Positions 31,675 to 57,452 of a stretch of 64,000 nt of DNA are shown here, in pieces. The position numbers were made by a program, and so were the translations under genes. The notes under the pieces were generated by a model. The model did not search any database. It had not been told where the DNA came from and worked only from the letters and a program-made list of their open reading frames with translations. How positions within the stretch are numbered: the first letter of the stretch is position 1; the number at the start of each line of letters is the position of its first letter. The stretch spans positions 248,001-312,000 of the forward strand of contig NZ_CANLWM010000004.1 of NCBI RefSeq assembly GCF_947494875.1. Direction: 5' to 3'. This DNA is from an uncultured Williamsia sp. (lineage in GTDB: Bacteria; Actinomycetota; Actinomycetes; Mycobacteriales; Mycobacteriaceae).

Positions 31675-31716
31675 GTCGAGTGGGCGGTCGGAGACGTCGA
31701 GTGGGCGTCCGGCGGC
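31675..31716 (+). repeat. Array A of the 21-bp repeat (2 copies)
   Basis: Two units of GTCGAGTGGGCG followed by a 9-bp variable part, starting at 31675 and 31696. The array fills the phoR-HIT gap and covers the -35 region of the HIT promoter. Same family as the arrays at 54779 and 55788. Confidence 0.85.
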
Positions 31717-51739: not shown

Positions 51740-52633
51740 ATGCGTCCCACCATCGAGTCCTATCGCCATGTGGCGTCGGGCAAGGTCCGCGAGCTCTACG
51801 AGATCGACGCCGACACGCTGCTCATGGTGTCGACGGATCGCATCTCCGCCTACGACCATGTCCTCGACAGCCTCATCCCCGACAAGGGGCGGGTCCTCAC
51901 GGCGATGTCGTTCTTCTGGTTCGAGACGCTGGGCATCGCCAACCACCTCGTCGGCGGGCCCGACGATCCTCGCATCCCGGCCGCAGAACTCGGCCGGTCG
52001 ATGGTGGTGCGCAAGCTGCCGATGATGCCGGTCGAGTGCGTCGCCCGCGGTTACCTCACCGGCTCGGGTCTGCTCGACTACCGAGCCACCGGCTCGGTGT
52101 GCGGCATCGCCTTGCCACCGGGCCTGCAGGAGGCGTCGCGGCTGCCGATGCCGATCTTCACCCCGGCGAGCAAGGCGGCCATCGGTGACCACGACGAGAA
52201 CATCGACTTCGTCGGGGTCGTCGAGCGTGTTGGCGAGCCGACGGCGCGCGCACTACGGGACACCACCCTCGACATCTACATGCGCGGAGCCGAACTCGCG
52301 GCGGGACGCGGGATCATCCTCGCCGACACTAAGTTCGAGTTCGGACTCGCGCCCGACGGGTCGCTGGTGCTCGCCGACGAGGTGCTGACGCCGGACTCGT
52401 CGCGGTACTGGGACGCCGGTATCCACACACCGGGCGTCGTGCAGCCCAGCTTCGACAAGCAGATCGTCCGCAACTGGCTGACCGGCCCGGAATCAGGGTG
52501 GGACAAGACGGGTGCCGCGCCGCCGCCACCTCTGCCGGGTGATGTGGTCGCTCGCACACGCACGCGATACATCGAGGCGTACGAGACCATCTCAGGTCGA
52601 TCGTTCGCGCAGTGGCCGGGAGGTGCGCGGTGA
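51740..52633 (+). CDS. purC: SAICAR synthetase (phosphoribosylaminoimidazole-succinocarboxamide synthase)
   Basis: A 297-residue enzyme that joins aspartate to CAIR in purine synthesis. Signatures are SGKVRELYE near residue 13, [28 protein letters not shown], and [10 protein letters not shown]. The start is fixed by a leaderless promoter. Its GTGA overlap with the next gene couples it to oligopeptidase B, an arrangement seen also at Rv0780-Rv0781. Confidence 0.97.
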
Positions 52634-54726
52634 GCGGGGTGCCCGAGGCGAAGAAGGTGCCGACGAGGCGCGAGCACCACGGTGATGTCGTCGTCGACGA
52701 ATACGAGTGGTTGCGCGAGAAGGACGACCCCGAGGTGATCGCGTTCCTCGAGGCGCAGAACGCGCTGACCGAGGCCGACACCGCCGAACTCGCCGACCTG
52801 CGGTCGACGATCGTGGGGGAGATCAAGGCGCGTACCAAGGAGACCGACATGTCGGTGCCGGTGCGCCGCGGCCGGTTCTGGTACTACTCCCGCACCGTCG
52901 AGGGAAAGCAGTACGGGATCAGCTGTCGCTGCCCGATCAGCGGCGACGACGACTGGGATCCGCCGACGGTCGGTGACGACCCACTCGACGGCGAGACCGT
53001 CCTGCTCGACTCGAACGTCGAGGCGGAGGGCACCGACTTCTACTCGCTGGGGTCGTTCTCGGTGAGCGACGACGGCACCCTGCTGGCCTACGGCGTCGAC
53101 ACCATCGGCGACGAGCGATACACGCTGCGGTTCAAGGACCTGACGTCCGGGGAGATGCTCGCCGACACGGTGGAGAACACCGCACCCGGTGCGACGTGGT
53201 CGGCCGACGGACGGCACGTCTTCTACCTGACCGTCGACGACGCCTGGCGTCCGGACACGGTGTGGCGCCACGACATCGGGGCCGGGTCCGACGACGTCCG
53301 CGTGTTCCACGAGCCCGACGAACGCTTCTGGGTCGGCATGGGGACCACTCGCAGCGACCGGTACCTGATGATCGCGCTCGGGTCCAAGATCACGTCCGAG
53401 GTGTACGTCCTCGACGCGTCGGAGCCGACCGGCGAGTTCCGCGTCGTGTGGCCGCGGCGGGACGGCATCGAATACGACGTCGAACACGCGGTCATCGCCG
53501 GTGAGGACCGGTTCCTCATCACGCACAACGAGAACGCCGAGAACTTCGAGGTGTTGTCCGCGCCGGTCGACGATCCGTCGGCGACGCGCGTGGTGGTCGC
53601 GCACGACGACGAGCGGCGCATCGAGGGCGTGGACGCGTTCGCCGATCGGCTGGTGCTCAGCTATCGACAGGGCGCGACGCCGAGGATCGCCGTCGCCGAT
53701 CTCGCGGGCGTCGGCGTCGACGACGACATCGCTTTCGCCGAGGTGGAGTTCGCGCAGGAGATCTCCTCGGCCGGGCTCGCGTCGAACCCGGAGTGGACCG
53801 CGCCCCGGCTGCGGATCGGGTACACGAGCTTCATCGAACCGTCGGAGGTGTTCGACCTCGACCTGCGGACCGGCGAACGGATCCTGTTGCGCCGGCAGCC
53901 CGTTCTCGGCGGCTACGACCCCGCCGACTACGAGCAGCATCGTGAATGGGTCACCGCGCGTGATGGCACCCAGGTGCCGCTGTCGGTGATCTCGCGGCGC
54001 GGTGTCGAGCGCCCGGCGCCGACACTGCTCTACGGGTACGGCTCGTACGAGGCCAGCATGGACCCGGCGTTCTCCATCGCGCGGCTGTCGTTGCTGGACC
54101 GCGGTGTCGTCTTCGTCGTCGCGCACATCCGCGGCGGCGGCGAGATGGGCCGGCACTGGTACGAGAACGGCAAGACGCTCACGAAGAAGAACACCTTCAC
54201 CGACTTCGTCGACGCCGCACAGCATCTCGTCGACACCGGCGCGACGACGCCGGACCGGTTGGTGGGGGAGGGCGGCTCCGCCGGCGGCCTGCTGATCGGT
54301 GCGGTCGCGAACCTGGCGCCCGAACTGTTCAGCGGGATCCTGGCCGTCGTGCCGTTCGTCGACCCGTTGACGTCGATCCTCGACCCGTCGCTGCCGCTGA
54401 CCGTCATCGAGTGGGACGAGTGGGGCAACCCGCTGGACGACCCCGAGGTGTACGCGTACATGAAGAGCTACTCGCCGTACGAGAACGTCGAGGAGAAGGC
54501 GTATCCCGCGATCCTGGCGATCACGTCGCTCAACGACACGCGGGTCATGTACACCGAGGCGGCGAAATGGGTTGCGCGCCTGCAGGCCCACACGACGTCG
54601 GATGCCCCGATCCTGCTGAAGACCGAGATGACCGCCGGCCACGGCGGCGTGAGCGGTCGCTACAAGCAGTGGGAAGAGGTGGCCTTCGAGCACGCCTGGG
54701 TCCTCCGCCAGACCAAGGCCCTCTGA
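52630..54726 (+). CDS. ptrB: Oligopeptidase B (prolyl oligopeptidase family S9A)
   Basis: A 698-residue serine peptidase that cleaves peptides after basic residues. An N-terminal beta-propeller (about 60-420) caps the catalytic domain. The active site is GEGGSAGG (Ser), with Asp in NDTRV and His in GHGGVSG. It is intact here; the M. tuberculosis gene is annotated as two pieces (ptrBa/ptrBb). The GTG start overlaps the purC stop. Confidence 0.95.
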
Positions 54727-54744
54727 CCGCTCCGGACCGAAACA

Positions 54745-54769
54745 CCCGACCCGACCCGACCCGACCCCC
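54745..54769 (-). other. G-quadruplex-capable tract (reverse strand)
   Basis: Five runs of at least three C on the forward strand (at 54745, 54750, 54755, 54760 and 54765), each separated by GA, give GGG-TC repeats on the reverse strand. It lies 18 bp after the ptrB stop and just before repeat array B. Confidence 0.6.
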
Positions 54770-54778
54770 ACTCACCTC

Positions 54779-54862
54779 GTCGAGTGGGCGCTCGGAGCCG
54801 TCGAGTGGGCGGCCGGAGCCGTCGAGTGGGCGCTTGGAGGCGTCGAGTGGGCGTTGGTACGC
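54779..54862 (+). repeat. Array B of the 21-bp repeat (4 copies)
   Basis: Four units start at 54779, 54800, 54821 and 54842, each GTCGAGTGGGCG plus 9 bp, mostly of the form nnnGGAGnC. The array ends directly beside the stop codon of the DUF559-like gene at 54864. Orientation is opposite to array C. Confidence 0.92.
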
Positions 54863-54863
54863 G

Positions 54864-55745
54864 TCACCGGTATCCCCGACGTTCCAGAGCTGATCTGATC
54901 TTCGCCATCTCGCCGTTCTCGTCCGCCGACAGAGCAGCTGCGACGGTTCGAAGCGGAATCCACCCTCGACGCATCACCCCACCGTCACGTCGGTGGTCAT
55001 GCAGCTTCTGCTCCTCGCTCGAGTGGTACTCCACGCCGTCGTAATCGATACCGATCTTGTACCGCCTGTACCCGAGGTCGAAGCGAGCGATCAGGGCGCC
55101 GTTCTCGTCGAACACCTCGATCTGACTCTCCGGTCGCGGGAGGCCGTGGCGGTGCATGATCAGTCGCGTCCAACTCTCGCCTGGTGACTCGGCGAGCGGG
55201 TCGACGAGCGGGACGAGCTCTCGGAGCTGGCAGATCCCACGGGCGCGCGGGTGGTCCCGGGTATAGGCCCACAACGCGGCCAGGTCCAGCTCGGCGGACC
55301 GCGCGAGATCGTCGAGGTGGCCGAGCGCCAGCCAGTCTGGACGTCGTCGGCCGAGATCGTATGCGGTCCGGACCACGCTGGTGACGGGCATCCCCGCGAT
55401 CTCGACGATGTCGTGGGCGGACAGTCGGTCCGTTCGGATGAAGCGAATCCCGCTCCTACGTCTGCCCTGGCCGCGGAGATCGCGGATCATCTCGACGTCT
55501 CCGTCCACATCGGGGTAGCGGACGCCGTGGAGGAACTGTGCACTCAGCCCCGCGACGACAGACCCGGACCCTGCGCTCATCCAGGCTGCTCGTATGCGGT
55601 CGGTTGTCGTCAGCGTCGTTCCCGAGTCGACGTAGACGCCTCGGTGCAGCCGCCGGAAGTCTCGTCGGACGTCGTCGTCGGCCCTGTCGGTGCGGACGAT
55701 CTGGGGTCGCGACGACTGCGCCTCGGAGGGGTTGGTCACGTTCAT
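54864..55745 (-). CDS. AbiEi-type / DUF559-like protein, predicted PD-(D/E)XK fold
   Basis: A 293-residue protein resembling the actinobacterial family with an AbiEi-type winged-helix N-terminus (RRDFRRLHRGVYVDS...WMSAGSGSVVAGLSAQFLHG) and a C-terminal DUF559/Vsr-like endonuclease-fold domain with ARFDLGYRRYKIGIDYDGVEYH and a HDHRRDGGVMRRGW tail. Members accompany defence or toxin-antitoxin contexts or stand alone; no partner toxin is seen. It breaks the otherwise conserved ptrB-emrB order and lies between inverted arrays of 21-bp repeats. The ATG at 55745 is chosen as the first start in the conserved part; RBS unclear. Confidence 0.7.
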   Translation of the reverse strand: MNVTNPSEAQSSRPQIVRTDRADDDVRRDFRRLHRGVYVDSGTTLTTTDRIRAAWMSAGSGSVVAGLSAQFLHGVRYPDVDGDVEMIRDLRGQGRRRSGIRFIRTDRLSAHDIVEIAGMPVTSVVRTAYDLGRRRPDWLALGHLDDLARSAELDLAALWAYTRDHPRARGICQLRELVPLVDPLAESPGESWTRLIMHRHGLPRPESQIEVFDENGALIARFDLGYRRYKIGIDYDGVEYHSSEEQKLHDHRRDGGVMRRGWIPLRTVAAALSADENGEMAKIRSALERRGYR

Positions 55746-55787
55746 GGGACGCGGCGAACGGCGATCCGGTTCCACTCGGCGTCCATC

Positions 55788-55904
55788 TGCCCAGTCGACC
55801 TCTCCAGCCGCCCACTCGACCTCTCCAGCCGCCCACTCGACGCCTCCGGCCGCCCACTCGACGCCTCCGGCCGCCCACTCGACGCCTCCAGCCGCCCACT
55901 CGAC
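55788..55904 (-). repeat. Array C of the 21-bp repeat (6 copies)
   Basis: Six cores CGCCCACTCGAC on the forward strand (first copy TGCCCAGTCGAC, degenerate) at 55788, 55809, 55830, 55851, 55872 and 55893, exactly 21 bp apart. It lies 43 bp upstream of the DUF559-like start and is inverted relative to array B. Confidence 0.92.
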
Positions 55905-55930
55905 GGGTGGTGTGGGGGCTCGTGTCGACG

Positions 55931-55966
55931 ACGAACGGCCCCCGGCTGATGCCGAGGGCCGTTCGT
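55931..55966. terminator. Hairpin terminator after the EmrB-type gene
   Basis: Arms ACGAACGGCCC and GGGCCGTTCGT (11 bp) extended inward by CGGC/GCCG after one mismatch, loop TGAT. It lies 13 bp beyond the stop of the reverse-strand transporter gene. Confidence 0.8.
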
Positions 55967-55979
55967 GGATCGTGCTGTG

Positions 55980-57452
55980 TCAGTGCATCATCACCGGGGC
56001 GGCGGGTTCGCCGTTCGGGGTGGCGACGGCGATCTTCTTGCGCGGCAGGAAGAACGCCGGGATCAGGCAGATCGCCACCAGCACCACCGCGACGATGAAG
56101 GTGTCGCCGAAGGCACCCGCTGCGGCCGACGGGGTCGGCTGTGCGAGCGAGGTCAGGTTGCTGGCGAGGATCACCGAGATGACGGCGGTGCCGATCGAGG
56201 CGGCGGTCTGCTGGACCACGTTCACCAGCGTGGAACCGTCGGCCACGTTCTCCGGCTTGAGCGTGGCGAGGGCGGCGGACATCATCGGCATCATCGTCAT
56301 GCCCATGCCGAGACCCTGGACGAACAGCCCCGCGCCCAGCAGCCAGTACGAGGTGCCGGCACCCAGGAACATGAACACACCGAGGCCGACGGCGATGAGC
56401 ACCAGGCCCGTCAGCACGAACTTGCCGGGACCGATCTTGTCGGTCATCCGCCCGGCGATCGGCATCGTGATCATCGCGCCGATGCCCTGCGGGGCGACCA
56501 GCAGACCGGCCATGAGCGTGGACTCACCGCGGACACCGATGAAGTACTGCGGGAACATCAGCGTCGCACCGAAGAACGCGATCAGGAACAGCGTGAACGT
56601 CACCATCGTGATGCTGAGCGTCCGGTTCTTGAAGAGCCGCAGATCGAGGAGCGGCTTCTTCCCGCGCAGTGCGTGTGCGATGAACGCCGCGATCAGGATC
56701 GCGCCGATCGCCATCGGGATCAGCACCTTGGCGGCGAGGAACGTGCCGGCCTCGTTCGACGACGAGACGCCGAACAGGAACACCGCGAGACCCGGTGACA
56801 GGAGCAGCAGTCCGACGAAGTCGAAGGCAGGCGACGACTTCTCCTCGCCACCGTCCAGGATGAACGCCGAGTACACGATGGCGAGGATGCCGATCGGCAC
56901 GTTGATGAGGAAGATCCAGTGCCAGGAGACGTACTCGATGAGCACGCCACCGAGGATGGGGCCGGCGATCGGTCCCAGCAGCATCGGGATGCCGAGCACG
57001 GCCATGATCGAACCGACACGCTCCGGCCCCGCCGCGCGGGTCAGGATCATCATGCCGACGGGCATCAGCATGCCGCCGCCCGCGCCCTGCAGCATGCGGA
57101 AGGCGACCAGCGAACCGATGTTCCACGCGAAGGCGCAGAGCACGGAGCCGATCACGAACAGCACCAGCGACATCAGGTAGACGTTCTTCGTCCCGAACCG
57201 CGCCGTCGCCCAGCTGGAGAGCGGGATGACGGCGGCCAGGGCCAGGGTGTAGCCGGTCGCCGTCCATGCCGCGTTGGCCGCGGACGTGGAGAACACCTGC
57301 TGGAACGTGGTCTGCGCGACGGCCACGACGGTGGTGTCCAGGATGGACATGATCGCGCCCAGCACGACGACGGCCGCGATCTTCAGAGTGCGGGCGTCGA
57401 GGCCGGGCGCCGAGTCGGCGGCGGGCGTCGACGGGGCTTGGGTGGTTGTCAT
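55980..57452 (-). CDS. DHA2-family MFS drug exporter (EmrB/QacA type)
   Basis: A 490-residue, 14-helix major facilitator of the DHA2 family. The N-terminal LDTTVVAVA motif (helix 1), the MLQGAGGGMLMPVGMMIL region and GPILGGVL (antiporter motif C-like) fit multidrug proton antiporters. It resembles Rv0783c (emrB). The ATG overlaps the MarR stop as ATGA, so the pair is a regulator-pump unit. A hairpin terminator follows. Confidence 0.93.
   Translation of the reverse strand: MTTTQAPSTPAADSAPGLDARTLKIAAVVVLGAIMSILDTTVVAVAQTTFQQVFSTSAANAAWTATGYTLALAAVIPLSSWATARFGTKNVYLMSLVLFVIGSVLCAFAWNIGSLVAFRMLQGAGGGMLMPVGMMILTRAAGPERVGSIMAVLGIPMLLGPIAGPILGGVLIEYVSWHWIFLINVPIGILAIVYSAFILDGGEEKSSPAFDFVGLLLLSPGLAVFLFGVSSSNEAGTFLAAKVLIPMAIGAILIAAFIAHALRGKKPLLDLRLFKNRTLSITMVTFTLFLIAFFGATLMFPQYFIGVRGESTLMAGLLVAPQGIGAMITMPIAGRMTDKIGPGKFVLTGLVLIAVGLGVFMFLGAGTSYWLLGAGLFVQGLGMGMTMMPMMSAALATLKPENVADGSTLVNVVQQTAASIGTAVISVILASNLTSLAQPTPSAAAGAFGDTFIVAVVLVAICLIPAFFLPRKKIAVATPNGEPAAPVMMH

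Follow-up and report, generated by a model that had tools for sequence, protein, structure and literature searches.

A putative nuclease gene framed by inverted arrays of a dispersed 21-bp repeat in Williamsia

The framed gene and its protein

We analyzed a stretch of 64,000 nucleotides (the window) from an uncultured Williamsia sp. (NCBI RefSeq assembly GCF_947494875.1, contig NZ_CANLWM010000004.1, positions 248,001 to 312,000 of the forward strand), in which a single minus-strand gene for a putative nuclease is enclosed by a left and a right array of one 21-bp repeat. The unit is composed of the core GTCGAGTGGGCG and the spacer NNNGGAGNC. Four forward units form the left array, with cores at 54779, 54800, 54821 and 54842, and the stop codon of the gene adjoins it. 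The right array is built from six reverse units, the first being TGCCCAGTCGAC and the remaining five exact. Tandem Repeats Finder reports 21-bp arrays at 54778-54853 (score 124) and 55782-55905 (score 185). An earlier note, made from this DNA alone, had described four forward and six inverted units around one reverse-strand gene as well as the left array abutting the stop codon, and both descriptions hold. The nuclease open reading frame (ORF) spans 54864-55775 on the minus strand, with a GTG at 55775; homologues favor an ATG at 55745, and gene starts are guesses. The features of the window are as follows.

54779..54862, plus strand: left array, four forward 21-bp units with core GTCGAGTGGGCG (unit reading, Tandem Repeats Finder)
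54864..55745, minus strand: AbiEi/EDxHD nuclease gene with ATG start (ORF, domain matches, homologues)
55748..55773, minus strand: GGAACC-N16-CGTC, a promoter-like element directly preceding the ATG (regular expression)
55788..55904, minus strand: right array, six reverse units, repeat as in the left array (unit reading, Tandem Repeats Finder)
31675..31707, plus strand: solo array, two forward units of the same repeat family (core search of the genome)
52612..54726, plus strand: S9 prolyl oligopeptidase (ptrB-like), PF02897/PF00326, flanking host gene (Pfam)
55980..57452, minus strand: major facilitator superfamily (MFS) transporter, PF07690, flanking host gene (Pfam)

The protein combines an AbiEi-antitoxin-like N-terminal half with a C-terminal half resembling the EDxHD nucleases Vsr and I-Bth0305I. 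AbiEi models match the former (PADLOC AbiEi, 3.1e-13), a model of the protein aligns with AbiEi and with I-Bth0305I/Vsr, and the acidic residues of the nuclease half are conserved in the family. The 44 aligned members match AbiEi_1, AbiEi_4, DUF559 and MTES_1575, with no hit to a transposase family at E 0.01; at the same threshold PF04480 matches 20 and PF18741 32 of them, the window protein itself reaching 29 bits against PF18741, under the 38.2-bit cut-off. The DUF559/AbiEi-like label given by the earlier note is thus confirmed by domain and model matches. Homologues occur in 63 of the 149 actinobacterial genomes sampled across the phylum (E 1e-10). Three genomes of the same family but another genus (G035, G081 and G097) contain at least 15, 14 and 10 nuclease homologues, respectively. 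Six homologues were found on plasmids at E 1e-8, each with less than 60% identity. The phage collection yielded no nuclease match at E 1e-5 and the viral contigs searched lack the exact tandem core; a phage origin was therefore rejected.

Framing and repeat type across relatives

The closest homologues are 19 genes in eight Williamsia genomes and four genes in Gordonia rhizosphera, G. sputi and G. jacobaea. Inward-pointing arrays lie on both sides of them, and the 21-22-bp units of these arrays are for the most part clade-specific. Framing was scored by aligning the 350 bp upstream of a gene with the reverse complement of the 350 bp downstream, with a threshold of 35. Leaving out L117 (Ns on one side, length), all 22 testable close homologues score between 44 and 133, whereas none of 47 genes from the window reaches 35 (highest score 29) and random cross-pairs do so in 20 of 1000 cases, shared repeats included. 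The set includes orthologues of one site, so the 22 genes do not represent 22 independent events. Among remote homologues, which belong by kinship to the same order or come from Gordonia, 33 of 48 pass the threshold; three duplicates (L127, L132, L137), L171, which lacks a start, and five loci that have faulty ends or stops or are fragments (L144, L153, L154, L156, L172) were omitted. The flanks of remote members are often palindromic, each on its own. For the one remote repeat that was searched, belonging to a remote paralogue in the source genome, the palindrome has four solo copies elsewhere (E <= 2.2e-8).

In a phylum-wide sample, consisting of the best match per highest-scoring genome and not of a random draw, 8 of the 26 usable loci out of 29 reach 35 (L189, L209 and L211 are cut by contig ends), against a 99th percentile of 29 and a maximum of 37 for 756 cross-pairs. 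Two of the 26 (L188, L190) are from the same family and neither passes. In one single-contig genome of that family, 9 of 14 homologues score at least 30 and seven at least 35, and their units differ.

The repeat is dispersed well beyond the gene. The core GTCGAGTGGGCG is present in 86 copies in the 4.77-Mb source genome versus nine for the reversed control pattern, and two cores at 21-bp spacing occur 41 times versus zero for the control, which is more than chance provides. The many dispersed arrays to which the earlier note looked for support are thus found, and a random local duplication is rejected since arrays occur genome-wide. Most of these arrays enclose no nuclease gene and they mostly lie downstream of stop codons; the solo array of the window, for instance, is located between two plus-strand genes, 9 bp past a stop codon. 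With a regular expression for the exact type, 26 other loci of the source genome give 14 inward pairs, no outward pair and 12 unclassed loci, the latter including L022, L027, L035 and some with varying partner units; L031 and L033 look outward once variant units are read by eye. All three inward pairs that were folded form long hairpins (z -8.9, -8.1 and -6.4). Furthermore, 13 of 23 arrays are situated between convergent genes compared to 5 of 50 other gaps at the same loci (Fisher p 4.8e-5). This count, with gene calls from a simple hexamer model, covers the 23 arrays with both neighboring genes called and drew on 24 of 29 loci, L009, L010 and L035 being excluded as single cores inside called ORFs and L022 and L027 as ambiguous.

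Across 61 genomes, the 12-bp core is present in 14 to 97 copies in seven of the eight Williamsia genomes, five in the eighth (G004) and 0 to 8 in the remaining 53. A looser 21-bp-period pattern (three times TGGGC) matches 58-143 times per Williamsia genome (n=8) and 0-6 times in the other 143 genomes. The named contigs that contain the tandem core (59 stretches) belong to Williamsia, to four species of Gordonia and to two Bacteroidetes bins.

Repeat type follows the genome and, mostly, the protein. The unit CAGTTGGGCACNTA is counted 61, 62, 25 and 80 times in G001, G004, G005 and G007, respectively, and zero times in the other four Williamsia genomes; these four are precisely the genomes in which the nuclease gene at the peptidase site is framed by CAGTTGGGCACNTA. 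Similarly, GTYYGTTGGGCRNNNGGRRCC occurs 59, 64 and 19 times in G000, G002 and G006 and is absent from the rest, these three being precisely the genomes with a nuclease gene at a second site, where the unit is GTTCGTTGGGCGNNNGGAACC. The match of unit to genome is drawn from eight related genomes and is not independent of common descent. Unit types mostly track the clades of the protein tree, of which the deep forks are uncertain; as exceptions, two clades share CAGTTGGGCAC as their framing unit, and GTCGAGTGGGCG is found around both L097/L098 and L104.

Exchange and concerted evolution at array sites

The peptidase gene is present in all eight Williamsia genomes searched, and in seven of them it is followed by a nuclease gene within arrays and in one orientation. 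A gene inversion between species, which we had considered, is consequently wrong. In strain CHRR-6 (G003) other DNA lies on the transporter side of the nuclease gene. In W. serinedens the site retains an inward array of a different unit type without the gene. As regards the target-site duplication and clean empty sites expected of an insertion sequence with terminal inverted repeats, W. serinedens keeps its gene-free arrays, and Gordonia aichiensis, tried as an empty site, is rearranged there with neither gene nor array and is uninformative; no insertion was found to have a clean empty counterpart.

Comparison of gene and flanks indicates an exchange at this site. Between G005 and G001 or G007 the flanks are 92.0-95.6% identical, whereas the nuclease genes share 67.8-68.8% (about 60% at the protein level); since the flanks are far more alike than the gene, the gene has been replaced within the frame of arrays. 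With G004, the gene of G005 shares 84.6% identity, alongside flanks at 85.0-86.2%. Between G001 and G007 the gene (88.4%) also falls below the flanks (93.9-95.9%). Identity among the proteins encoded at the purE site of G001, G005 and G007 amounts to 87.2-89.7%.

Many arrays keep their position across species. For 14 of 24 array sites of the source genome, both flanks have matches in W. deligens or W. serinedens that adjoin units (13 times with the GTCGAGTGGGCG core, once of another type). Spacer likeness between different sites within one species amounts to 0.58, 0.64 and 0.66, compared to 0.53 for the same site and 0.51 for different sites between species, and none of 2000 within-site label shuffles matches this contrast. 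Because likeness within a species exceeds that of the same site between species, the spacers evolve in concert, either by copying or by selection for the preference of one protein. The nearly invariant core and the GGAG-containing spacer of the earlier note stand at the locus and broadly in the source genome, but the spacer differs in the sister species.

L129 (G. sputi) and L130 (G. jacobaea) share position and gene with flanks about 93% identical and differ in unit numbers on both sides, which is fast array turnover. Elsewhere in the source genome, the variant units GTCGACTGGGCR and GTCGGTTGGGCG are mixed with the main core (L014 3001-3186, L030 3001-3175 and L031 3001-3121).

A proposed repeat-associated nuclease element and its rivals

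On balance, we favor by a small measure the reading that this gene belongs to a repeat-associated nuclease element, in which an AbiEi-like half is joined to an EDxHD half and the gene resides in arrays that are its presumed target. The observed basis consists of the framing, the dispersal, the matching of units to genomes and mostly to clades, the homogenization, the gene exchange, the two-part fold and the conserved acidic residues; specific unit binding, cleavage and repair-driven copying are predicted from the sequences. Here, the AbiEi-like half would recognize the ~21-bp unit and the EDxHD half, of Vsr/I-Bth0305I type, would nick or cut at it. Repair of a cut array from another array-bearing copy would homogenize arrays within the genome and might form new ones, and during such repair the gene may home into arrays or swap between them. 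In terms of homing, the gene inside arrays, the gene-free array at one site and the exchange within the frame are observed, and cleavage is only predicted. The gene is probably a resident of the repeat family that acts on that family. Since most arrays are gene-free and W. serinedens has an array without the gene, this view fits better than a single insertion bounded by terminal repeats. The earlier note's suggestion of a cassette ending in inverted arrays therefore survives in part: all testable close homologues are framed alike and the gene is exchanged within the frame, but the arrays are not just the ends of a cassette. Gene-free arrays at the same place, which the earlier note regarded as evidence against its own proposal, are seen in W. 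serinedens. Weighing against the pairing of unit and protein, GTCGAGTGGGCG cores are present in W. serinedens (G002, 54 copies) and in G001, G005 and G007 (26, 26 and 14), where genes framed by GTCGAGTGGGCG were not found. Such orphan cores may be left over from genes since lost, or a related protein may serve them.

The conserved positions and the location of arrays at gene 3' ends make a second explanation viable, namely that the arrays serve the host as functional binding sites of a resident regulator or architectural protein, for instance to terminate transcription where genes converge, and that arrays and protein co-evolve by selection and not by copying. The excess between convergent genes and the strong hairpins fit this explanation, and selection for the preference of one protein would also account for the species-wide homogenization. 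We nevertheless consider it unlikely, given the gene swapping at one site, the conserved nuclease residues, unit types and copy numbers that differ sharply between species, and three genomes of the same family that contain at least 10, 14 and 15 homologues, with different repeats in the one that was examined. The same hairpins, inward pairs and positions after stops could also be read as transposition in the manner of the REP-associated tyrosine transposases (RAYTs), with solo inward arrays as miniature transposons whose hairpins are excised and inserted by the nuclease via single-stranded intermediates; REPINs are similarly laid out (PMC3116915). The protein, however, is not an HUH tyrosine transposase, many array positions are conserved between species and a clean empty site was not found, so that we regard such transposition as decidedly unlikely.

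AbiEi proteins bind inverted repeats in their own promoters (PMC7319586), and the AbiEi matches of the N-terminal half would suit a defense or toxin-antitoxin module in which an autoregulator carries a nuclease effector and the arrays are merely its operators. This is very improbable: arrays also follow the gene and occur at the ends of many genes far from it, the window locus has no AbiEii toxin neighbor (the adjacent genes encode the peptidase and the transporter), and the phage collection gave no match at E 1e-5. Least credible to us is a passive association, in which arrays spread by slippage and gene conversion alone and genes tolerate such places. It draws on ordinary genes found between inward arrays and on same-core arrays in two Bacteroidetes bins, and it is opposed by the framing of close and remote homologues versus the controls and by unit types tracking genome and, mostly, protein clade.

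By analogy, the resident nuclease would work like RAYT/REP elements or a homing endonuclease with an unrelated protein. In the RAYT/TnpA-REP systems, a gene is flanked by copies of a repeat that further occurs dispersed in extragenic DNA, frequently as inverted doublets, and when a genome has several such genes each can be paired with a separate group of repeats (PMC3733652, PMC3116915). Inverted flanking repeats, dispersal outside genes and hairpin-forming inverted doublets, as in REPtrons and TIRtrons, are all found here. Yet, AbiEi-like and Vsr-like halves take the place of the IS200/IS605-type HUH tyrosine transposase, the GTAG tag is absent from the GTCGAGTGGGCG-NNNGGAGNC unit consensus, and Williamsia units are tandem 21-22-bp repeats in contrast to the single tagged palindromes of REP. 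Lacking both that transposase and the tag, the element is not a REPtron. With the homing endonuclease I-Bth0305I and with Vsr it shares the C-terminal fold and conserved acidic residues, but it differs in having a multi-copy repeat as its presumed target and an AbiEi-like other half; introns or inteins were not noticed at the locus, where the search comprised Rfam on 54500-56100 (zero matches up to E 1). The AbiEi antitoxin domain links the protein to AbiEi antitoxins and Rv2827c, from which it differs by fusion to a nuclease and by repeats dispersed genome-wide; unlike in the AbiE type IV toxin-antitoxin system, an adjacent AbiEii (DUF1814) toxin gene is absent at the window locus. DUF559 and MTES_1575 (PF04480, PF18741) are described as of unknown function or restriction endonuclease-like, and the matches listed in the literature searched, whose coverage leaves out most subscription journals, do not link DUF559/AbiEi-nuclease genes to flanking or dispersed repeats.

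The gene, its arrays, their dispersal and the matching repeats in relatives together point to an undescribed kind of genome-shaping element. More broadly, it is possible, at somewhat under even chances in our estimate, that a non-HUH, repeat-driving selfish element is distributed across Actinomycetota, in which an AbiEi-EDxHD nuclease recognizes and spreads a short repeat of its own; a genome would contain up to a dozen or more paralogues, each with a different repeat as its partner. DUF559 is described as a family whose function is unknown, and the homologues in those 63 genomes now gain a candidate role and a candidate target. If this reading holds, REP-like repeats, which two reports tie to tyrosine transposases (PMC3733652, PMC3116915), would have a second kind of protein partner unrelated to the first, and the requirements for repeat persistence would therefore become testable by comparison. 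The flanks of these genes often seem to contain the target, so that protein-repeat pairs would be readable from sequence alone. With the target thus marked by every gene, many natural pairs of this kind would become available, and with them a direct way to study how specificity changes in a DNA-reading protein.

Some observations stand apart. The two Bacteroidetes bins, which have similar isolate names (Nc350), contain long one-way 21-bp arrays (L044 94-399 and L086 2399-2798) with the same core, CGCCCACTCGAC, spacers AT-rich, at loci with a G+C of 0.52 and 0.44. A nuclease homologue was not found in either bin genome at E 0.001, and the arrays may reflect convergence or a wider repeat class. 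Single other genes lie between inward arrays at L217, L218, L221 and L236 (YqeY-like, flavin-reductase-like, DUF308 and a weak DUF4190 match below its cut-off, respectively). The idea that larger inserts between arrays are decayed nuclease genes was rejected on the basis of four of six such inserts (all but L219 and L220), which by Pfam contain other genes. The promoter-like element GGAACC-N16-CGTC resembles promoters recognized by extracytoplasmic function (ECF) sigma factors; the pattern G[GA]AACC-N16-CGTC precedes the start codon in 15 of 22 close and 13 of 48 remote homologues, and occurs in 123 of 2000 random 135-mers from the window.
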